DNA of 12,699 nucleotides. Origin: an uncultured euryarchaeote. Lineage in GTDB: Archaea > Thermoplasmatota > Poseidoniia > Poseidoniales > Poseidoniaceae. Positions within the stretch are counted from its first letter, which is position 1; every line of letters begins with the position of its first letter. The position numbers and the translations under genes were made by a program. The stretch spans positions 1-12,699 of the forward strand of contig CALBJF010000357.1 of the NCBI GenBank assembly GCA_937892665.1. The letters run 5' to 3'. This document shows, piece by piece, positions 1,802 through 11,878 of this stretch. Under the pieces are notes generated by a model. The model saw nothing but the letters and a program-made list of their open reading frames with translations. It was not told the origin of the DNA and ran no database searches.

Positions 1802-4732
1802 ATGGACAACAAACTCGCTTCAACGATTTTAGTAGCGCTTCTCGTTGGAGCATCACTCGCTGTCTTTGCCCTATCCTCCACCGATGAGGAATCAAAAGAC
1901 GATATAAAATCACAGAATGATGAGACCGAGCAAGAACTGATTCAGGCCCCTCCATCTAATGTTGAACCAACAATCTTAGTGGAGAATAGAACATCAGAGT
2001 GGACTGGAGCAAACCATGCGCTTCAAGGATATGTCGTGGATGAAAACCCTTCCAGCGTCTCGATTGAAATTACAATACTCAACCAAGACTTTTCGATTCA
2101 TCTTACAGATATATCAGCTCAAAGTGATGCTAATGGATATTGGCAAGTTGAGTTTTCTGAGTCTGAGCCTGGACAATGGCTTGTTCAAATAAAAGCAACC
2201 GATGAAGAGGCTGCAACGACTGAACGGCTGATCGAGTATATCGTTACTGTGCCAAATGAACGGGATGTCGATGTAGTATTCTCATGGACAGAACCTACTG
2301 AGAATGAGTCTACAGGCCATCTTTCTGGTGCAATTCTTCATCAATTCCCAGAGACATGTTCAATCAAGTACCACCCACTCGGAGCAAGTTCATCAAGTTC
2401 TATTATCGGCGAAGTAAATACAACATTAGGAACGTATACGATAACATTCGACGTCTCTACAACAAATACCGAAGGCGACATCATTGCTAATTGTGGACTT
2501 TACACAATATCCTCTCAAACACTTCGAGTTGATCTTCCAGTAACACCATCATCAACAGACTCAGATAACGACGGCATACCTGATTTGACTGATGATTGCG
2601 ACTCAACACCGGAAGATGAACCAGTTTATGGGACAGGATGTTCTGATTCAGAGACAGATTCTGACGAGGATGGCGTCATGAATGATGCAGACCTCTGTCC
2701 AGATACTCAATCCAATAGGGCAGTCAATCCCGACGGATGTTCACAATATCAACTCGATGCGGATAATGACGGGGTAAGTAACGCGGTTGATCAGTGCTCA
2801 AACACGCCATTGGGCGAGCAAGTCGATACGACTGGATGTTCTGATTCTCAAAAGGATTCAGATGGGGATGGCGTAACAGACAATCTCGATGAATGTCCAA
2901 ACACATTGCCTGGAGAATCGGTGAATGAAGTGGGATGTGTTCCAAGCGTACCTAGTCCAACATCTATGAAAATCCTCGCACTTCATGGAGGTGGGGATTC
3001 CGCCTCAGGACTAGCATCACAACAAGGCATGCAGGATCTAGTCGATGCATTACCTGAATTTGAATTTGTATTTGCAAGCACACCTGAGAGCGGAAACGTC
3101 TGGTATCAAGACCCGCCTGGTGGTAAAGGAGAACCTACAACAGATCCAGATTGGGCAGATTTATCCATTTCATATCTCGATCAAATGGTAATCGATAATG
3201 GCCCGTTTTATGCATTACTTGGCTACTCTCAAGGGTCAGCTATGATACCCGTCTACCTCGCAAACACACAGAATACGTTCGACAGAGTTATGCTGTATAA
3301 TGGCTATTTACCAACAACACACAATGGTTTGATGGATACGATTAATGCAGCAGCACCATTTTCTACACCTGCAATGATTTTCTCAGGTGAAAATGATGGA
3401 AACTTCAAAGACTTAGCACCTGCACTAGCTCAGAAATTTTCAGGTTCATTAGACCTGCATAGTCAAACCGCGGGACATCATCTGCCTTACGAAACTGACG
3501 AACATTTCGACCAAATTCTTACCTTCATTCGTGAAGGAATTGAGCCATATGATCCTGTAGATTCATGGTACTGTCAAGACGGCAGTGGGCCTTGGGTCAA
3601 AGATTTCAATGGCGATGGTAATGGATACACTGCAAATACAAACGGCGTCAGCAGTGCTGGCGGGGGTGGCTCTGGACCATGGTTCCAATGCGATGTCTCC
3701 GTAACAGTTCAAAATAATGAGATGATTGTTGAAAGTAATGGAATTCCAAACCACGATTTCTTGAGCACAATGGGATGCTGCGCTCCAGAAATGGACTATA
3801 CGTCGACATTCCCACTCACTCCTGTTAACGATACTACTGGGGGACATGATACAACAAACTGTCCAGCTTCAGCAGGCCGGTGGGAATGTGTTCCAGATAG
3901 AGGAACGGTCGCCATGTCTGTAAATGGAGCTCCAATCTTTGGTCCAGAGGAAGGCCCTGGGGGAGATGCTGTCGCACTCCATTTCGAATATTTTACTGAA
4001 AATCGGCAACCGATTGTTCTTGGATGGTGTACTGGCCACTCTGCTGGCCCGAACGGGTATCATTACCACTATGATGCGAACTGCGTCTATTGGGAACCTG
4101 AAGCTGGGGAGACAATGGAAGATTACGACCCTTCGAAGATCAAGAGTGACGAGCACAGCCCAATTATTGGATGGGCATTTGATGGATATCCAATTTATGG
4201 GATGTATGGCTACAATGATGATCAAAGTTCCCTCAAAGCAATCACCTCTTCCTATGCAATCGAGCGAACTCAAGAGGGCGGAGATCAAGGATACAACGGA
4301 ATCGATGACTGGAATTACGTTGACGGAGTTGGGGATTTAGACGAATGTAACGGGCGATTTGGCCCAACACCTGAATATCCAGATGGAATATATCATTATG
4401 TCAGCACGCCACTTTCAGGTTCTCCTACAATGGTAACTGACACAAATGATCAAACTGTTGGGATGATTGGATTCCCGTATTTCCTTCTCTGTTATCATGG
4501 CGTTGCTGACGTCGCTGGCCAAGATGTTGGAGGCGGCCAAGGTGGTGGCGGCGGTGGAGGCCCTGGTGGCGGTGGAGGCCCCCCTGGCGGCGGAGCTATA
4601 CTCTATTCATTCACCCCCGAAATCGACTATCTCATCGATGAGTATGAAATCGAAGAAATCATGTTTGATCTAAGTTTTTCACTTCTCTTCTTGGCTCTAA
4701 TTAGCGCTGGATTGAAACGTCGTAAGAAGTGA
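1802..4732 (+). CDS. Large cell-surface protein: TSP3 repeats, FSH1-like serine hydrolase, YHYH domain, C-terminal anchor
   Basis: The 976-residue exported protein begins with a hydrophobic signal or anchor (about residues 5-26) and an acidic linker. A beta-rich region follows to about 250, possibly Ig-like. Residues 253-382 hold thrombospondin type-3 calcium-binding repeats. Residues 389-575 are an alpha/beta hydrolase closest to the FSH1 serine hydrolases: LALHGGG at the first strand, nucleophile elbow GYSQG (Ser476), candidate acid D532 in GENDGN, and histidines 559/560 in AGHHLP. From about 610 to 905 lies a YHYH domain, with SNGIPNH, the motif YHYHY at 753-757 and GWAFDGYPIYG at 790-800. 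A Gly-rich stretch (910-931), a hydrophobic helix (about 955-971) and terminal KRRKK suggest anchoring with the domains outside. The hydrolase substrate and YHYH function are unknown. It probably shares an mRNA with the SCO-like gene 4 bp downstream. Confidence 0.88.
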   Translation: MDNKLASTILVALLVGASLAVFALSSTDEESKDDIKSQNDETEQELIQAPPSNVEPTILVENRTSEWTGANHALQGYVVDENPSSVSIEITILNQDFSIHLTDISAQSDANGYWQVEFSESEPGQWLVQIKATDEEAATTERLIEYIVTVPNERDVDVVFSWTEPTENESTGHLSGAILHQFPETCSIKYHPLGASSSSSIIGEVNTTLGTYTITFDVSTTNTEGDIIANCGLYTISSQTLRVDLPVTPSSTDSDNDGIPDLTDDCDSTPEDEPVYGTGCSDSETDSDEDGVMNDADLCPDTQSNRAVNPDGCSQYQLDADNDGVSNAVDQCSNTPLGEQVDTTGCSDSQKDSDGDGVTDNLDECPNTLPGESVNEVGCVPSVPSPTSMKILALHGGGDSASGLASQQGMQDLVDALPEFEFVFASTPESGNVWYQDPPGGKGEPTTDPDWADLSISYLDQMVIDNGPFYALLGYSQGSAMIPVYLANTQNTFDRVMLYNGYLPTTHNGLMDTINAAAPFSTPAMIFSGENDGNFKDLAPALAQKFSGSLDLHSQTAGHHLPYETDEHFDQILTFIREGIEPYDPVDSWYCQDGSGPWVKDFNGDGNGYTANTNGVSSAGGGGSGPWFQCDVSVTVQNNEMIVESNGIPNHDFLSTMGCCAPEMDYTSTFPLTPVNDTTGGHDTTNCPASAGRWECVPDRGTVAMSVNGAPIFGPEEGPGGDAVALHFEYFTENRQPIVLGWCTGHSAGPNGYHYHYDANCVYWEPEAGETMEDYDPSKIKSDEHSPIIGWAFDGYPIYGMYGYNDDQSSLKAITSSYAIERTQEGGDQGYNGIDDWNYVDGVGDLDECNGRFGPTPEYPDGIYHYVSTPLSGSPTMVTDTNDQTVGMIGFPYFLLCYHGVADVAGQDVGGGQGGGGGGGPGGGGGPPGGGAILYSFTPEIDYLIDEYEIEEIMFDLSFSLLFLALISAGLKRRKK
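2558..2947 (+). repeat. Thrombospondin type-3 repeat region (four units)
   Basis: Four imperfect units encode acidic calcium-binding loops: DSDNDGIPD, DSDEDGVMN, DADNDGVSN and DSDGDGVTD. Each is followed about 30 residues later by a conserved GC (GTGC, PDGC, TTGC, EVGC) and contains an internal DxC or LCP-type cysteine. In TSP3 domains the aspartates wrap Ca2+ and the cysteines form disulfides, giving a rigid extracellular stalk. Here the region separates the N-terminal beta-rich part from the hydrolase. The units diverge at nucleotide level, so this is an old protein repeat, not a recent tandem duplication. Confidence 0.85.
4529..4594 (+). repeat. Gly-rich low-complexity linker
   Basis: GGN-type codons encode about 22 residues that are almost entirely glycine with a few prolines and one glutamine (residues 910-931 of the surface protein). 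The stretch lies between the YHYH domain and the membrane helix and probably acts as a flexible spacer. The repeated GGTGGC/GGAGGC composition makes it prone to length variation by slippage. Confidence 0.8.
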
Positions 4733-5405: not shown

Positions 5406-6203
5406 ATGTGGACAGATGAATCGCCCATGCTCCCTCTTCAAAATGGGAAAACGGGGCATATCACCCTCATTGACCCAGATAAACAATCTCCAGAAGTAGC
5501 AGCGAACAGAGCATTAGTTGCAGTCGAGTGTGGAACTTCAGCAATATTTGTAGGGGGTTCAACCAACACCGGCAATGACCTTGTTCATGCAACATGTCAA
5601 GCAATCCAAGAGGCATTAGAATTACGAATCTTTGCTGCAAGCCAACATCCAGATGCTAATGAAGAGATGTGGAACGTGCCTGTTATTCTTTTCCCAGGAG
5701 GCGCCCATGCAATGTCAAGTAGTGCTGATGGGATTCTTTTCATGATGCTCATGAATAGTCGTTCTCGCCGCTTCTTGATCGAGGAGCAACTTGCCGGCGC
5801 TCCACTTATTGATCAGTATGGGATCAAACCAATTCCTACTGGCTACATTGTATGCGCTCCAGGCGGAAAGGTGGGAGAAGTAGGAGATGCAGATCTTATT
5901 CAATCAAATGACTCGAAGGCTGTATCAGCATATTGTAAAACGGCTGAAATGTATGGGTTCTCAACAATCTATCTCGAAGCAGGTTCTGGCGCCTCAAAAC
6001 CTGTTCATATTGACCTTATTCAGGCTGCTAAAACATCAAGCAAGTGTACACTTATTGTTGGCGGAGGAATTCGAACCTCAGAACAACTCTTAGCTGCAGC
6101 AAACGCTGGTGCAGATTACATTGTTACTGGAACAATTACCGAAGAACACGATTCACTCGAGAGTTTGAGAGAGCAACTTCACTCACTCATCAGCGTTCTC
6201 TGA
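5406..6203 (+). CDS. Geranylgeranylglyceryl phosphate synthase (GGGP synthase)
   Basis: This PcrB/GGGPS-family TIM-barrel enzyme joins geranylgeranyl diphosphate to sn-glycerol-1-phosphate. The product carries the first ether bond of archaeal membrane lipids, and the step is committed. The 265-residue length is normal for the family. Diagnostic motifs appear in order: HITLIDPDK, IFVGGSTNTG, VILFPGGAHAMS, GYIVCAPGGKVG, TIYLEAGSGA, VGGGIRTSEQ and GADYIVTGT. The last four form the glycerol-1-phosphate pocket. The chosen ATG has a good Shine-Dalgarno match, GAGGGTG at 5393-5399, six bases upstream. A second ATG seven codons later is possible but less well placed. It follows the SCO-like gene by 48 bp in the same direction. 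Its last 21 bases overlap the end of the opposing coiled-coil gene. Confidence 0.95.
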   Translation: MWTDESPMLPLQNGKTGHITLIDPDKQSPEVAANRALVAVECGTSAIFVGGSTNTGNDLVHATCQAIQEALELRIFAASQHPDANEEMWNVPVILFPGGAHAMSSSADGILFMMLMNSRSRRFLIEEQLAGAPLIDQYGIKPIPTGYIVCAPGGKVGEVGDADLIQSNDSKAVSAYCKTAEMYGFSTIYLEAGSGASKPVHIDLIQAAKTSSKCTLIVGGGIRTSEQLLAAANAGADYIVTGTITEEHDSLESLREQLHSLISVL

Positions 6204-7457
6204 CTCTTCGTCATAGAGAACAGGATCGCCGCTTCCACCTGGAGATGGAGGTCTTGCTTCATCAACATCCATTCCACTCTGAAGTTCATTTTCACCAACA
6301 TCGAGTTGGACACGACCGCCTTCTGCGAGGTGTTGCATATCATCGGGAGATGGCGTTGAAAGTGTTCGCTTTACATCAGGAGAGTTTGCATAGGCTTCTC
6401 GCTTAGCTTCACGGGCATCATGGCCACGAACCAATGAAAGTGAATCTGCAAAGACACGGCCCACAACTTCTCGAGTTCGCTCGCCTCTACGAACGCTGTC
6501 AACTTCTTGCATAGCAACTTGATTTTGTGATTCTAATTCTCTTATCTCAGCAACACGGTCTGTAAGTGCGGCTTCAAGATCCGTCATTGTGAGCGACATT
6601 TGTTGGATACGCTCATCGCGTTCAAAGACATCTGTGTGGAGTCGGCGTTCACGACGTCGCAGAGATTCATATTCACGGTTTCTTTCAAGCAGACGGCGCT
6701 TCATCTCCTCAATTTGTTCAACCAAATAATCGTGTTCTGCAGATACAGAACGTGGACCTTGCATAACTCGCTCGAGTTGTTCTTCAAGATCTGCTAATCG
6801 CTGGTCTCGAGCATCGAGCAATCCTCGCATACGGTCGGCGATATCTCTCAATCGCTGGCGTTCTTCTTCAAGAGCATTATTTGCAGCAACTTCCGCTTCA
6901 TAATGGGCAGTTTGTTCGTCAAGTTTGTTCTTGAGTGAGCGAACTTCGTCTGCAGTAACGGATGTTAGCCCAGCATCTGCTGCTTTTTCAAGAGCCTCGA
7001 CCATCAACCCCATGCGTCCTTCCATCTCAGAAATAATATCATCCTGAGACACACTGAGGTCTCGTAGTTGAGCGACTTCTTCATGCATCGAATCTTGCTG
7101 TTCCTTGGAAAGCGATGATGCTTGAGCATCAAGTTCTGCGCGACTGTCATTGAGTAATCGTTCAAGATGGACAATTCGAGCATCTGATTCCTTCAATTGC
7201 TCGTCTGCTTGATGCAAGCGTTGAATTTCAGGAGCGACCTCATCTTCGCGCTCAGCAAGATCGAGTTCTAGAACACGGAGACGTTGCTTAGTTGTAACAA
7301 CCTCTTCATTTCGTCGTCCTAATTCATCCCAAGCAATGAGGACTTCTTCGACGAGTTGCTCAATTGGATATCCCTTGAGCATGCCTTCAAGCGCAGCTCT
7401 GTCATTACCGGAGGATTGGCTATGGTTAGAGCCTGAATTTGCAGCGCCGAGCGTCAT
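6183..7457 (-). CDS. Long coiled-coil protein of unknown function next to the actin gene
   Basis: I do not recognise a named family. The 424 residues comprise a short Ser/Asn/Gly-rich head (1-20), then a conserved-looking helical segment GYPIEQLVEEVLIAWDELG (about 28-46), and a charged, heptad-like region to about 340 rich in Glu, Arg, Leu and Gln (for example LRDIADRMRGLLDARDQRL). The tail from about 365 is Pro/Gly/Asp/Glu-rich and probably disordered. There is no signal peptide or membrane helix, so it should be cytosolic. ATG 7457 has AGGA six bases upstream (7464-7467). It lies 92 bp downstream of the actin-like gene on the same strand, so a filament-binding, spacer or scaffold role is plausible inference only. 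Generic similarity to SMC, tropomyosin or myosin rods would reflect composition, not homology. Confidence 0.85.
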   Translation of the reverse strand: MTLGAANSGSNHSQSSGNDRAALEGMLKGYPIEQLVEEVLIAWDELGRRNEEVVTTKQRLRVLELDLAEREDEVAPEIQRLHQADEQLKESDARIVHLERLLNDSRAELDAQASSLSKEQQDSMHEEVAQLRDLSVSQDDIISEMEGRMGLMVEALEKAADAGLTSVTADEVRSLKNKLDEQTAHYEAEVAANNALEEERQRLRDIADRMRGLLDARDQRLADLEEQLERVMQGPRSVSAEHDYLVEQIEEMKRRLLERNREYESLRRRERRLHTDVFERDERIQQMSLTMTDLEAALTDRVAEIRELESQNQVAMQEVDSVRRGERTREVVGRVFADSLSLVRGHDAREAKREAYANSPDVKRTLSTPSPDDMQHLAEGGRVQLDVGENELQSGMDVDEARPPSPGGSGDPVLYDEESENADE

Positions 7458-7507
7458 ACAGTATCCTATCGAGACACAACCACTCTTGAACCTTCCCTGT
7501 CAAAGAA

Positions 7508-7529
7508 GGGCTAATAGCCCCGATTTTAA
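7508..7529 (-). promoter_or_regulatory. Candidate promoter with a palindromic operator upstream of the coiled-coil gene
   Basis: The sequence GGGCTAATAGCCC at 7508-7520 has six-base perfect inverted arms around a single central base. Read on the minus strand, it lies directly downstream of a TATA-like TTAAAA at 7524-7529. A start site about 25 bp below that TATA would fall near 7500, leaving a leader of about 43 bases before ATG 7457, with AGGA six bases upstream of it. The palindrome would then lie between TATA box and start site, a usual position for a repressor site. It suggests that the coiled-coil gene can be controlled apart from the actin gene. Confidence 0.35.
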
Positions 7530-7549
7530 GGTGAAAACAGTGAACCGAA

Positions 7550-8554
7550 TCAGTTGATTGCGGTGTACATGTCATCAGGCATTTCGCCAGCGAGCATGAG
7601 GGCACCTTCTGCAACCTTTTCTAATGGGTTTTCAACACACCAGACGTTAACGTCGCCGATGTCCGAGATCTCTCGAGCAACTCGCTCTGCAAGTCCATCA
7701 ATGAGAGAACCTCCACCGGAGAGGATGATGTTGTTTCGAAGAACTGGTTGGTATTCAGGGTCAGCTTCAGCAACAATTCTCTTGATTGCGTTTCCGACCT
7801 TTGGAATGAGGAGTTCACAAGCCTCTAGAATCAAATCACCGATATCGACGGTCTGGTTCTTTCCATCAACGCTGAGGTTTACTTCAACGGTTCGTGTGTC
7901 TCCGCCAACATAGGACGATTCTTCCTTCCACTTGCGGACCATGTCCTTTGTAATTTGAGCACCAGTGAATTTCTTTGAAATCAGTGTCATCAATTCGATG
8001 TCGAGCCAGTCTCCAGCTTCTTGGATTGTTACTTGGTCTTCATCAGTAGGGAATGTTCCGTGGATACGAGCGATGTCAGTTGTACCTGCACCGACGTCAA
8101 CAACGATTGAACCGCCAATTTCGCCGATACCAAATGCTGTTGCGAATGGTTCTGTAACGACCATGATTGCGTTTACTTGTCCACGAAGTGTGGCAACGAG
8201 GTTGCTCTTGTCAGTAAATGAAACGTGGCTTGGGGAGCAAATAACTCCGAAAACCTCGTCATATTCTTCTGGATCAACTGTTTCGATGAGGTGAGATACG
8301 AATGCCTTAGCAGCAGCTAAGTTTGCTTCATCATCTTGTGCAACACCAGCGGCCATTGGGCGATATAGGTTACATGCAAGTTTGTTCTTCAAAGCATCTG
8401 CTCCGAAGAGAACATCACGCTTCAAGAAGTTGCGAGCTACAGGGTCTTTTGGTCGTCCTACGACTGTCTCAATAGAGTGCATAGCGCCAGCGCTGGATGC
8501 AATCGTAGATTGAAAGGTTCCTAAATCAATTCCAACATATAATCGTTCACTCAT
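7550..8554 (-). CDS. Actin-like ATPase of the MreB/MamK group
   Basis: The 334-residue protein belongs to the actin/HSP70/sugar-kinase fold and forms, by family analogy, ATP-dependent cytoplasmic filaments. Visible motifs are phosphate-1 YVGIDLGTFQST (6-17), candidate catalytic Glu135 in VVTEPF, phosphate-2 VVDVGAGTTD (151-160) and adenosine motif ILSGGGSLIDG (277-287). From memory, VVGRPKD near the N-terminus and the MHG/IHGT-P-ED-Q-T sequence after phosphate-2 resemble MamK more than classical MreB, and the length also fits MamK. There is no membrane-targeting helix. I chose ATG 8554 because AAGGTGAT, complementary to the 16S 3' end, precedes it. Two more ATGs abut it upstream, and ATG 8602 would lie inside a likely TATA box. 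Crenactin-like and diverged MreB assignments remain possible. The neighbouring coiled-coil gene is the obvious candidate partner. Confidence 0.92.
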   Translation of the reverse strand: MSERLYVGIDLGTFQSTIASSAGAMHSIETVVGRPKDPVARNFLKRDVLFGADALKNKLACNLYRPMAAGVAQDDEANLAAAKAFVSHLIETVDPEEYDEVFGVICSPSHVSFTDKSNLVATLRGQVNAIMVVTEPFATAFGIGEIGGSIVVDVGAGTTDIARIHGTFPTDEDQVTIQEAGDWLDIELMTLISKKFTGAQITKDMVRKWKEESSYVGGDTRTVEVNLSVDGKNQTVDIGDLILEACELLIPKVGNAIKRIVAEADPEYQPVLRNNIILSGGGSLIDGLAERVAREISDIGDVNVWCVENPLEKVAEGALMLAGEMPDDMYTAIN

Positions 8555-8600
8555 CATCATCACCTTCTCGGATATACAAGCGTGGATGCCATACGGTTTC

Positions 8601-8607
8601 AATATAG
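8601..8607 (-). promoter_or_regulatory. Candidate TATA box of the actin-like gene
   Basis: The minus strand reads CTATATT here, about 50 bases upstream of the chosen ATG at 8554. Initiation about 25 bp downstream would give a leader of about 25 bases carrying the AAGGTGAT ribosome-binding site at 8559-8566. This favours transcription of the actin separately from the upstream protease, and argues against the longer reading frame from 8602, because that ATG overlaps the TATA element. Confidence 0.4.
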
Positions 8608-8647
8608 CCCTTCGCTCTCAAGGAAATTTTAGTAATCAAAAATCATC

Positions 8648-11509
8648 TCAGTCTATCTTTTTTTGCGTAAGAAACTGTAAAAATGTGGCAATAAGAAAAG
8701 AGAGAACAAGTATGGCTAAGACCGACGTCAGCACCCATCCAGGGGCCTCGCTTGATTCTACTTCGGTTTCGTCATACACCTCGATGATGAATGAAGGCGA
8801 CTCCAAGATATTCGATTGTGATTCAGTCCACCAACTTGTGTTGCGATCAGTGCCTTCGATGACGACGAACCACTCCCCGTTTGGTGAGAGCGGGAAAAAG
8901 CCATTTTCAACATCGATATTGCAGGTGTGCCACGAATCATTTTCCGTAACCATGGTGCAAATCTCAACAATACCCAATGAATCATTTGAGCGCTGCAACG
9001 TGATATTAATGTCCACGACATCATTATCTAGAACAGAGAACATCAAGGGAATTGTTGAATTATTGTGCCCAACCAATTTGGAGGCATCAAAGAATATTTG
9101 AGGGATATCGTTCATTTCAGCACAACCGTTCTCTTGAACCGGAGTATCTTGAATTGTAGCAATACAATCGTCAATTGAATCGACAACTCCATCAGCATCA
9201 GTATCGTCAATACATCCATCAGAATTCACATCCCATGAAGAAGCATCTGTGAACGGGCACAAATCACTCTCATAGGGTATCCCGTCATTATCTGCATCTG
9301 TATGTCCGACAGGGTCGAGAACTACGCCCTGAATAGCCATCCCGAAACCAATCTTATTTCCTTCAACACCAATAGAATTTGGGACATTGCCCGGAGTGAC
9401 ATATCTTCCGACAACGAAGACATCGACCCAAGCACTAGAATCCAAACTCTCGGCAGAGAGCGAAACCCCGACAGTCGTTTCATTACTGCTTGGAAATGCA
9501 CTCATATTCGAAGGGTCTGCAAAACCATAATACAACATTGAAAACCCATTTTCCCTGTAGGTATCTCCTACAGCAAATCTACCATCTGGTAATTTTACAA
9601 GAAGTTGCAAGTCATCAACCATGTGAGGTTCTGGCTTGGCTTGAAAAGCCAATCGAATGTCTAGGTCTTGACCTTGTTGAAGGATAAAACGCTGCTGAAA
9701 GACATCATCTGTTCCCAAAAAAGGACCTTGTGCTCCTAGCCCATCCCATGGAGTAGAAAGGAGCGATTCTAACGGTTCTCCAGAGCCCTTTCGTTGATTT
9801 ATTAGATCAAGAGGTTCTACGTTTTCTAGGCGATACGAATCATGAATCCATATGTTTTCAATCGGCCGAACATCCTCTTGCATCAAATCGTTTTGAATCT
9901 CTTCGATATTGATCACCTCTGAGAGGTTCAATCGCCCCCACCCATCGTAGGAATTCGGAGAAAGACCTCCACCCATTCCCCCATTTCTGAATTCCTCTGA
10001 TAACGGAGTTGTTGAAAGTGCTAGAAGCGATTTCAGAAGAGGTGCAGAGGGAGTGAACCCTTCGCCAAGAAGGAGGTCATGTTGAAACGAAGGGGTGTTC
10101 GAAAACCATGGTTGAAGAGAACGAGAATCTACATTTTGTAATGACTCATTATGGCCAGTGAACCATCCGTCCCGCACCATCTGTTCCATGATGCTGGCGA
10201 ATCCGGCAGCAGTTGGCGTCGACATACTCGTGCCGCTAAGAGTGTGATGACCCGAGTTCCAGGTGTTGGCTTGACCATCTGATCGTGCGGAAGTAATCGA
10301 TACACCTGGTGCAAGAGCGAATACGCCCCTTGTACCGGCTTCTGTGGGGCCATGAACGGATGAATTCCAACGTCTAGGATCATCATCTTTGGTCGAGGCT
10401 CCAATAGCAATTACGTTCCTTGCGTTTGCAGGTTCAAGCACGTCGCCACCGTTATTTCCTGGAGCAATCAAAGGAAGAGACCAAGGATACTCTCGGGTAA
10501 ACGCATCAAAATCACCAGATCGAAGCGTGTACTCCGTCGTATCATCACCCCAAGAATCTGAATGTAAGATTGCGCCATATTCAGACGACTCGAGCAATAA
10601 ATAATCAACATCAGGAGGGAGCCAACCTTCTTCGGATACGATGTCTTGAACAACAAGCTTTGTTCCATATCCGAGCGCCATTGCTGCAGAAGGAATCTGA
10701 TACTCTTCCGAAGTCGATACAGGGTGACAACCTACTGAACCTGCAGTATGTGTGCCATGGCGATAATCGCTATGGCCCTGTGAATCCCAATCGTCGATTG
10801 AGGTATTTATGTGAAGAATTTTGCGTTGTGAATTCCCTGTACTATCACTTGTCAGGTTTCGAAAGCAGGAATGATCAGCATCAATTCCAGAGTCAGCGAT
10901 TCCTACGACAACCCCGCTCCCATTCAAACCTAATTCCCAAGCAAGCGGTGAGTTGTAATCAGAATCCTGTTTTGAGAGTTGAACTGCACTGCCGAGATTT
11001 CTACTGACTGTTTCCAGAGTAGGTTCTAGCCATAGAACACCGTCTATTTTGGAAAACCAATCGGTTGAATAATGATCTCTCCATTCGATTGTAGCGTGAG
11101 GTAAAACAGCATCTTGGGCGAGATTAAGAATTGAAGTACCCTTTTGCTCGAAAATATTGTCGATTATTTCATGTTGGACTTGTTCAGGTAAATTCGGTTC
11201 AAAAACGATGGAAACAAATTGTCCAGCAAAAGGTATTGATTGCCACGGAGCGGGTTCATTCACCGATTCAACTCGATCAAACGATTGAATTGTTCGATCG
11301 AGTTTCCATGCAATAAGTTCCGTTGGGGAAACGACTCTCAAAGGAACATATCCTGATTGAATTACATTGTCCCAAGCGGTCTGCGTCCATAATTCACCTT
11401 CAGGCAAAGTAAGGATTACCTCTTCTCCTCTGAGTTCTAGAGGGGCTTGGTCATGCACTAAGGAGAGCGGTGCAGCTAAGAGCAAGACAAGAAGAAGAGC
11501 ACTTCGCAC
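8648..11509 (-). CDS. Subtilisin-like serine protease (S8), secreted and membrane-anchored, with TSP3 repeats
   Basis: This is a 953-residue exported peptidase. The N-terminus RSALLLVLLLAAPLSL is a Sec-type signal peptide, followed by a prodomain-like region to about 185. The catalytic domain has Asp206 in IADSGID, His251 in RHGTHTAG, oxyanion Asn352 in APGNNGG and Ser428 in SGTSMSTPTAAG, so all four key residues are present. A beta-rich C-terminal region, possibly P-domain/PPC-like, precedes two TSP3 units (about 738-796), another beta domain and a membrane helix (about 923-945) before KKID. The protein should sit on the outer face and degrade proteins, probably for nutrition. I chose GTG 11509 because GAGGAGGT lies 10 bases upstream and it gives a proper signal peptide. 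ATG 11536 would add nine residues with two acidic ones and has no ribosome-binding site. The actin gene follows after 93 bp. Confidence 0.93.
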   Translation of the reverse strand: MRSALLLVLLLAAPLSLVHDQAPLELRGEEVILTLPEGELWTQTAWDNVIQSGYVPLRVVSPTELIAWKLDRTIQSFDRVESVNEPAPWQSIPFAGQFVSIVFEPNLPEQVQHEIIDNIFEQKGTSILNLAQDAVLPHATIEWRDHYSTDWFSKIDGVLWLEPTLETVSRNLGSAVQLSKQDSDYNSPLAWELGLNGSGVVVGIADSGIDADHSCFRNLTSDSTGNSQRKILHINTSIDDWDSQGHSDYRHGTHTAGSVGCHPVSTSEEYQIPSAAMALGYGTKLVVQDIVSEEGWLPPDVDYLLLESSEYGAILHSDSWGDDTTEYTLRSGDFDAFTREYPWSLPLIAPGNNGGDVLEPANARNVIAIGASTKDDDPRRWNSSVHGPTEAGTRGVFALAPGVSITSARSDGQANTWNSGHHTLSGTSMSTPTAAGFASIMEQMVRDGWFTGHNESLQNVDSRSLQPWFSNTPSFQHDLLLGEGFTPSAPLLKSLLALSTTPLSEEFRNGGMGGGLSPNSYDGWGRLNLSEVINIEEIQNDLMQEDVRPIENIWIHDSYRLENVEPLDLINQRKGSGEPLESLLSTPWDGLGAQGPFLGTDDVFQQRFILQQGQDLDIRLAFQAKPEPHMVDDLQLLVKLPDGRFAVGDTYRENGFSMLYYGFADPSNMSAFPSSNETTVGVSLSAESLDSSAWVDVFVVGRYVTPGNVPNSIGVEGNKIGFGMAIQGVVLDPVGHTDADNDGIPYESDLCPFTDASSWDVNSDGCIDDTDADGVVDSIDDCIATIQDTPVQENGCAEMNDIPQIFFDASKLVGHNNSTIPLMFSVLDNDVVDINITLQRSNDSLGIVEICTMVTENDSWHTCNIDVENGFFPLSPNGEWFVVIEGTDRNTSWWTESQSNILESPSFIIEVYDETEVESSEAPGWVLTSVLAILVLSFLIATFLQFLTQKKID
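9122..9298 (-). repeat. Thrombospondin type-3 repeats in the protease
   Basis: Two calcium-loop units read on the minus strand, DADNDGIPYESDLCP and DTDADGVVDSIDDC, are each closed by a GC (SDGC, ENGC). They resemble the four units in the YHYH/hydrolase protein and probably form a rigid Ca2+-loaded stalk between the catalytic part and the final beta domain and membrane helix. Confidence 0.85.
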
Positions 11510-11575
11510 AACGTTAGGGACCTCCTCATTGTTCATGAAACACGCGATGCGTCGTTTGGCAAGTCAACCATCGCG

Positions 11576-11605: not shown

Positions 11606-11878
11606 ATGAAGGCCTACCGTGTTGCTGGACAAGCCCCCTTTGGAAGCATGAGACAGAAGTTCTCTCTCGACATCGTTGCAAGTTCAAAAGACGATGCTGA
11701 ACACCGAGCATACTCTACTATCGGATCACGCCACAAAGCAAATCGCCGAGCGATCAAAATCATCTCAATTGGTGAAATCGACCCTCGAACATCAACCGAG
11801 CCATCCGTTCTCCATCACTTTCGCGACCAAATCACAGCAGAAGGTGGAAGAACCGCACCTGTGGCAGAAGAAGAGTGA
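11606..11878 (+). CDS. rpl18a: Large-subunit ribosomal protein L18Ae/LX (L20a family)
   Basis: The 90-residue basic protein begins MKAYRVAGQAPFGSMRQKFS and continues with the family pattern of DDAEHRAYSTIGSRHKANRRAIKI, typical of archaeal L18Ae (LX). It binds the large ribosomal subunit. The archaeal family is commonly about 60-80 residues. Here a tail of about 30 residues, ending in an acidic PVAEEE, follows the core at IGEID. The gene heads an information-processing cluster with pfdA and ftsY, an arrangement seen in many Euryarchaeota. The L31e and eIF6 genes that often precede it are not present here; a divergent protease occupies that side. Confidence 0.92.
   Translation: MKAYRVAGQAPFGSMRQKFSLDIVASSKDDAEHRAYSTIGSRHKANRRAIKIISIGEIDPRTSTEPSVLHHFRDQITAEGGRTAPVAEEE

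Follow-up and report, generated by a model that had tools for sequence, protein, structure and literature searches.

Among described systems, the closest to the one reported here is built on MamK, the actin that aligns the magnetic organelles of bacteria. Coiled-coil proteins assist it in Desulfovibrio magneticus RS-1, a deep-branching magnetotactic bacterium, where MamK and a second actin, Mad28, act together with Mad20, 23, 25 and 26, and two-hybrid interactions are reported (PMC12748827). Mad28 and MamK are also described as a two-actin set in PMC10653835. In archaea, crenactin has dedicated partners, of which arcadin-4 is SMC-like, and is regarded as eukaryote-like, as the abstract of the same paper argues (PMC5173319); haloarchaea possess volactin and salactin, the nearest relative of the latter being given as MamK (PMC10746226). 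Here we analyse a stretch of 12,699 nucleotides (the window) on contig C357 (CALBJF010000357.1) of an uncultured Poseidoniales (Marine Group II, MGII) archaeon, in which the gene for a MamK-related actin (actin A) is followed on the same strand by the gene for a long coiled-coil protein (CC). The two genes form a conserved module in this archaeal order, which also carries a second actin-partner pair, and a plausible mechanism for the actin A-CC module can be proposed from its sequences.

We found no published description of an MGII actin in the main text of the open-licence literature, which was covered partly by title. The accessible text of three MGII papers (PMC9723583, PMC6461757 and PMC6336850) is without the terms MreB and cytoskeleton, that of PMC6864105 is without MreB, and we found no description of an MGII actin in that of PMC9258230. 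The MGII cell biology reported in these sources consists of cell size, coccoid shape and flagella genes.

Results

Actin A is related to MamK

The source genome (1.73 Mb in 408 contigs, 82.8% complete) has Poseidoniales metagenome-assembled genomes as its nearest relatives. On the minus strand of the window the genes for an S8 subtilase, actin A and CC follow one another in that order, between ribosomal protein L18a and prefoldin alpha on one side and geranylgeranylglyceryl phosphate synthase (GGGPS) on the other (Table 1). An earlier note, made from the letters of the window and a list of open reading frames, had described a complete actin-fold ATPase with its nucleotide motifs and, 92 bp after the actin stop, a long cytosolic coiled-coil protein that it could place in no family. 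Both reading frames lie where that note had put them, at that spacing; the mechanical frame of actin A begins further upstream, at a TTG at 8602. Counted by codon position, differences from the related locus L015 number 61/27/225 in the CC gene and 14/10/134 in the actin gene; judged by these differences, both look like real coding sequences and are under protein-level selection.

The description of the actin is borne out. Actin A matches the Pfam families MreB_Mbl (PF06723, 2.7e-22) and Actin, all nine motif residues checked are present in an alignment (D10, T13, E135, D153, G157, D160, G280, G282 and G317), covering the phosphate 1, phosphate 2, adenosine and connecting motifs of the superfamily, and an AlphaFold2 model reaches a predicted local distance difference test (pLDDT) score of 90.4 and a predicted template modelling (pTM) score of 0.87. 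MamK is the closest named family by hidden Markov model (HMM; NF040964, E 4.2e-99, 331.7 bits), by sequence to solved structures (5jyg, 2.5e-59; also 5ljv and 5ljw) and by fold, which corresponds to that of the MamK filament subunit. The fold matches listed do not include crenactin, Ta0583 or ParM, to which we attach no weight. In a tree, actin A groups with MamK and MamK-like actins, apart from MreB, which lies across a branch of 5.2 changes with support of 100/100; the exact branching order among MamK-type actins is uncertain because long branches meet. The likeness to MamK that the earlier note pointed out is thus correct, as is the conserved pairing described below; membership of the MamK family did not hold by the curated cut-off of 400 bits. 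Other families score below their cut-offs as well, namely MreB (NF010539, 79.1 against 293 bits), BeeR (NF053558, 207.1 against 530), salactin (PF25229, 25.8 against a gathering cut-off of 27.1) and volactin (Pfam, 22.7 against 35), and the ParM HMM gives a weak match (E 0.003).

MamK-like proteins also carry bacterial names (KSB1, Planctomycetota, Nitrospirota, Brocadiales). Those from KSB1, Planctomycetota, Brocadiales and Thermoplasmata share a broad clade with actin A, but the five tested exceed the MamK cut-off (429.5-440.3 bits), whereas actin A does not. BeeR of Verrucomicrobiota, which forms a three-stranded tube (8r2n), has an N-terminal extension of 30-50 residues that is missing from actin A, since actin A starts three residues before its first modelled strand. 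No placement in a non-filament clade was found, and residues of the polymer interface could not be judged. We considered MamK A278 as a marker of polymerisation, the A278D variant being non-polymerising according to a PDB title, and dropped it: actin A proteins carry P, S, T or A there, those of actin B (the second actin, below) D, E or N, and other sequences a mixture, so that the site gives no information on polymerisation. Three contigs filed as viral (L250, L251 and L252) encode MamK-related actins at 33-36% identity.

The actin A-CC pair is conserved across the order

We surveyed 292 genomes drawn from the order, with families coded f and genera g; we take f1, the family of the window, to be Poseidoniaceae (MGIIa) and f2 to be Thalassarchaeaceae (MGIIb). 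An actin match occurs in 174 of them, 141 of the 145 in f1 and 33 in f2, the latter nearly all in genera g15, g17, g19 and g22. One of the 33, a weak match (2.2e-12) in G276 from the actin-less genus g13, was set aside as neither actin A nor actin B, since it proved an ordinary MreB (429 bits, with the cut-off at 293). This gene (L271, G276:C29:2324-3298) lies in a Poseidoniales genome that is 67% complete and 3% contaminated and may itself be contamination; G276 was outside the set of 80 genomes compared below.

Ninety-eight loci were compared, the best 80 of 173 and a further 18 chosen to span genera, with assemblies DAFX01, DAPR01 and NYZH01 contributing two each. In 96 of the loci CC lies downstream of actin A in the same orientation, at a distance of 89-160 bp in 92 cases; the two genes are indeed neighbours in relatives. 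The two exceptions (L161 and L162) belong to genus g9, where CC lies elsewhere in three of the four genomes searched and in one of them still adjoins GGGPS; here the pair has been split, not lost. Of the 98 loci, 91 have a co-directional subtilase gene upstream of actin A, at a median gap of 112 bp; of the seven others, six have less than 600 bp of upstream sequence and one (L028) has 816 bp. In two of the three g17 loci the subtilase overlaps the actin A start by 17 bp.

CC is cut back at one place where the actins are absent

CC has no Pfam match at E 0.01, none of its 19-residue Kyte-Doolittle windows exceeds 0.74, and its structure model consists of long helices with breaks at residues 161-168 and 233-237, the second at GPRSVSAEH. 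The picture of a long cytosolic coiled coil without a family placement is in keeping with these results. A match to the SMC model TIGR02169 is confined to the coil region and stays below the cut-off (33.8 against 729.4 bits), and the low-scoring Pfam hits of CC relatives, including crescentin rod, were rejected because all fell below their cut-offs. Where actin is present, the longest strongly conserved block of CC sits in its rear part.

A CC profile was searched over 80 genomes, 79 of them Poseidoniales; a genome was scored as actin-less where the list of actin matches had no entry for it. Of the 41 actin-bearing genomes 38 have a full-length CC, and of the 38 actin-less genomes none has. 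The three actin-bearing genomes without it (G140, G143 and G164) have a completeness of 75-81%; actin A is not seen in G143, and in G140 and G164 its match sits at a contig end. Fifteen of the 38 actin-less genomes have an open frame of 144-195 residues, one with an internal stop, that matches positions ~8-161 of the model only. Fourteen of these short frames lie between L18a and GGGPS, and for the fifteenth the contig ends first; no actin or S8 match is labelled in any of the 15 loci. We sought GGGPS in nine more actin-less genomes and found it in five, of which three have a short CC (two of ~130 residues with a weak match) and two have contigs that end beside GGGPS. Thirteen of the short-CC alignments terminate at CC residues 146-162. 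The short CC has thus been cut back to about residues 1-160, ending at what the model predicts to be a helix break.

In a tree of five neighbouring proteins, for which actin-less genomes were included only if a short CC had been shown, the 15 actin-less loci form one clade (100/100) within f2 (99/99), beside actin-bearing f2 lineages. A single loss is the simplest history if the root falls between f1 and f2. Presence counts are then not independent, and the association within f2 (p 4e-13) is to be read accordingly. A second, independent loss of both actins, in G007 and G065 of genus g15, was considered and dropped: the G007 contig ends beside GGGPS, and G065 had no GGGPS in a PF01884 search that also missed GGGPS in G013, G023, G024 and G140. 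Within f2 the median genome size is 1.4 Mb for actin-less and 1.8 Mb for actin-bearing genomes. MGIIa genomes are reported to be ~400 kb larger on average than those of MGIIb, whose two most basal clades are MGIIa-sized (PMC6336850), and the way actin presence tracks genome size here is in line with that report.

A second actin has its own partner

In a check of 20 genomes, 15 of them actin-bearing, two MamK-type actins or pieces of them were present in 14 of the 15, and G066 had one. The second, actin B, lies at a separate locus behind a partner of ~337 residues with zinc-ribbon-like and TerB-like parts. The partner largely tracks actin B, as at L151:8855-10988 (-) and L153:7864-10064 (+). 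Its TerB stretch is below the Pfam cut-off (17.2 against 24.4 bits); of 12 aligned members, 10 have zinc-ribbon-like cysteines at each end and two, from g9, have them at the C-terminal end alone. Whole or in part, the partner is present in 39 of 41 actin-bearing and none of 38 actin-less genomes, if weak matches in G007 and G065 that cover just the TerB-like stretch are left aside. G066 and G177, the two actin-bearing genomes that lack the partner, show actin A alone.

Actins A and B each form one clade. An initial tree did not resolve how A and B relate to each other and to the MamK core; with BeeR and the long row P0335 removed, A and B join at 100/97, with long branches flagged by the program, as might be expected from a duplication before the families split. 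Against the MamK cut-off of 400 bits, three A proteins score 329.5-339.5 and three B proteins 359.3-376.7; one of the latter (359.3) also exceeds the salactin cut-off, at 55.5 bits. In the one-contig genome G002, actin B (L156:9448-10442, -) is split over two frames, perhaps through a sequencing error or because the gene is broken.

Upstream elements

The element GAAGGTTCAAG stands at -38 to -28 relative to the CC start codon. Its core, with one wildcard, recurs in 93 of 96 CC upstream regions, and the longer pattern has one exact match in its own genome. That the box is specific to CC was rejected: the best comparable words upstream of other genes occur in 64 of 95 regions for actin, 68 of 79 for S8 and 70 of 78 for L18a (partly coding), and since these genes share such words a promoter box is likelier. 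Judged from these elements, actin A and CC are likely to have separate promoters and not to share one transcript. The core AARGTTCAAG of the GAARGTTCAAG box (7485-7495, -) is found exactly in seven of the 15 short-CC loci.

Discussion

Our preferred reading, which we hold with slightly better than even confidence, is that actin A is a filament former and CC its dedicated two-part linker. The analysis establishes the family and fold of the actin, the conserved adjacency of the genes, their shared pattern of presence and the sharp truncation of CC where actin is missing. We infer that actin A would polymerise, as an ATP-driven filament former of the MamK-related group; that the rear part of CC (~161-424) would engage or organise the filament; and that the front part (~1-160) would attach to a cell component present with or without actin. 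Together, actin A and CC may keep a cell structure in place or spread it through these small coccoid cells, by analogy with MamK and its coiled-coil helpers at magnetosomes. The earlier note had likewise proposed that CC might tie filaments to cargo, the nucleoid or the envelope. The combination of a MamK-like actin and coiled-coil helpers is attested in RS-1, and the locus of an unrelated archaeon, G357, may be of a similar kind; both are offered as analogies. At E 1e-15, a survey of 292 genomes across the phylum gave two matches outside the order, in G357 (435.5 bits) and G487 (77.1 bits); the G357 actin exceeds the MamK cut-off, that of G487 is closest to MreB structures, and G357 is the one matching genome among the 12 in its class. 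In G357 a 618-residue gene, read as ending in a long coiled coil, lies about 200 bp downstream of the actin, and the CC profile has no match in that genome at E 1e-6. A difference from MamK is that the order has two paralogues, each with a partner unrelated to the other.

Several observations weigh against our preferred reading. The CC model (pTM 0.23) is usable for helix limits and not for the global fold; the site of A278D varies freely across the family; CC has a promoter-like box of its own; and in four of the 96 adjacent loci 0.7-2.8 kb separate the genes. The loss is essentially one event, so that 38 against 0 cannot be counted as 38 independent cases; in G007 and G065, two of these actin-less genomes, actin may be missing through assembly gaps only; and small genomes have lost many genes, so that actin and the CC rear part may have gone separately. 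G010 has the actin B partner without an actin B match.

In a rather unlikely alternative, actin A and CC are old neighbours without a functional link, each with its own promoter, and the loss of one and trimming of the other are unrelated steps of genome reduction. The separate conserved boxes, the separation of the genes in g9 and the smaller actin-less genomes of f2 fit this. However, the rear part holds the longest conserved block of CC and was not seen in the 38 actin-less genomes, and the genus with separated genes keeps full-length CC in three of its four genomes. More improbable still is a role in surface attachment or archaellum organisation, in which the filament would give the archaellum, or the membrane-anchored S8 protease encoded next door, its place on one side of the cell. 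Archaellin is present in 18 of 18 f1 genomes and in 14 of 20 actin-bearing but 9 of 42 actin-less f2 genomes; a TerB-like domain is common to the actin B partner and to genes that flank the archaellum cluster; and the S8 gene precedes actin A in most loci and is not labelled in the short-CC loci. Yet g17 (0/4) and g22 (0/1) have actin without archaellin and g14 (5/5) and g21 (2/2) archaellin without actin, and flagella operons are reported in all Poseidoniaceae and half of Thalassarchaeaceae genera (Rinke et al., PMC6461757). As actin and archaellin occur apart in these genera, the archaellum cannot be the sole cargo; with the two distributions differing, an obligatory role in archaellum placement is disfavoured and strict dependence was rejected. 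The S8 protein ends nine residues past its most hydrophobic window, so any cytosolic tail would be short.

Two further accounts we regard as very improbable. A shape cytoskeleton of the MreB kind is what several source names imply ('rod shape-determining protein'), and the fold is shared; the long, fully supported branch to MreB and the gap between the MreB and MamK scores argue otherwise, and MGIIa cells are reported to be coccoid, about 0.7 um and similar to MGIIb (PMC6864105), which disfavours a rod-shape role. ParM-type partition systems typically consist of an actin and an adaptor gene, and CC would be the DNA adaptor in such a system; on the other side, the locus is syntenic in two families between translation and lipid genes, lies once on a 2.06-Mb chromosome and matches ParM weakly, and a search for partition repeats at 6100-8760 gave nothing beyond two-copy matches.

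Our preferred reading of a filament with a linker could be part of something larger, although we consider this extension only tentatively and as the less probable case: a two-actin cytoskeleton of MamK type, with actin A, its linker and the upstream protease gene in one part and actin B with its zinc-ribbon/TerB-like partner in the other, which would have been dismantled whole in the streamlined clade, the cargo-binding half of the linker being kept. Unrelated to magnetosomes, it would organise one or more structures in cells below 1 um. The new observations are actin B with its own partner and the shortening of CC at the same place in a small-genome clade without both actins. Both actins, the actin B partner and the CC rear part are absent together, in what amounts to a natural deletion experiment, and this joint absence yields a precise prediction as to the part of CC that goes with the filament. 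The data also place MamK-related actins in archaea that have so far given no hint of magnetosomes: none of the loci, read without a systematic search, contained a recognised magnetosome gene, and magnetochrome (PF18509) matched none of 20 genomes, its control likewise matching nowhere. The host group is among the most abundant archaea of the surface ocean, and the module points to an internal skeleton in these cells that has not been described.

Features of the window and of related loci

Table 1. Positions of the features discussed, numbered from the first letter of the window.
Feature	Position	Strand	Description	Basis
Actin A	7550..8554 (stop included)	-	MamK-related actin ATPase, 334 residues	Open reading frame, HMM, structure model, motif alignment
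CC	6183..7457	-	Coiled-coil partner, 424 residues, no transmembrane segment seen, no known family	
CC front part	6978..7457	-	Residues 1-160; retained in actin-less relatives; modelled helices 32-115 and 118-160	
CC rear part	6186..6977	-	Residues 161-424; seen solely in actin-bearing genomes; starts at conserved helix break AGLTSVTADEVR	
CC conserved block	6558..6758	-	Residues 234-300, strongly conserved; GPRSVSAEHDYLVEQIEE...RRRERRLH...VFERDERIQQM	
Element upstream of CC	7485..7495	-	Conserved GAAGGTTCAAG; putative promoter-like box	
S8 subtilase	8648..11536	-	962 residues; hydrophobic N-terminus; D215/H260/S437 motifs; C-terminal transmembrane segment	
GGGPS	5406..6203	+	Convergent flank; 21-bp overlap with CC 3' end	
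Ribosomal protein L18a	11606..11878	+	Other flank of the module	

Elsewhere in the window, 1802-4732 (+) encodes a 976-residue protein with thrombospondin type 3 repeats, an FSH1-type hydrolase and a YHYH domain. Among the related loci, actin A and CC stand about 2.3 kb apart in L017 and about 2.8 kb apart in L171. The G357 locus (L207:9143-12279, +) comes from a 5-Mb Thermoplasmatota genome with 7% contamination, and the neighbours of its actin look archaeal in our reading (RNA polymerase subunit, Kae1-like). A TerB-like protein of ~145 residues adjoins the archaellum cluster at L243:12227-12664 (-), L244:4442-4882 (+) and L247:15541-15975 (-); its similarity to the TerB-like part of the actin B partner makes a link between the two systems possible.

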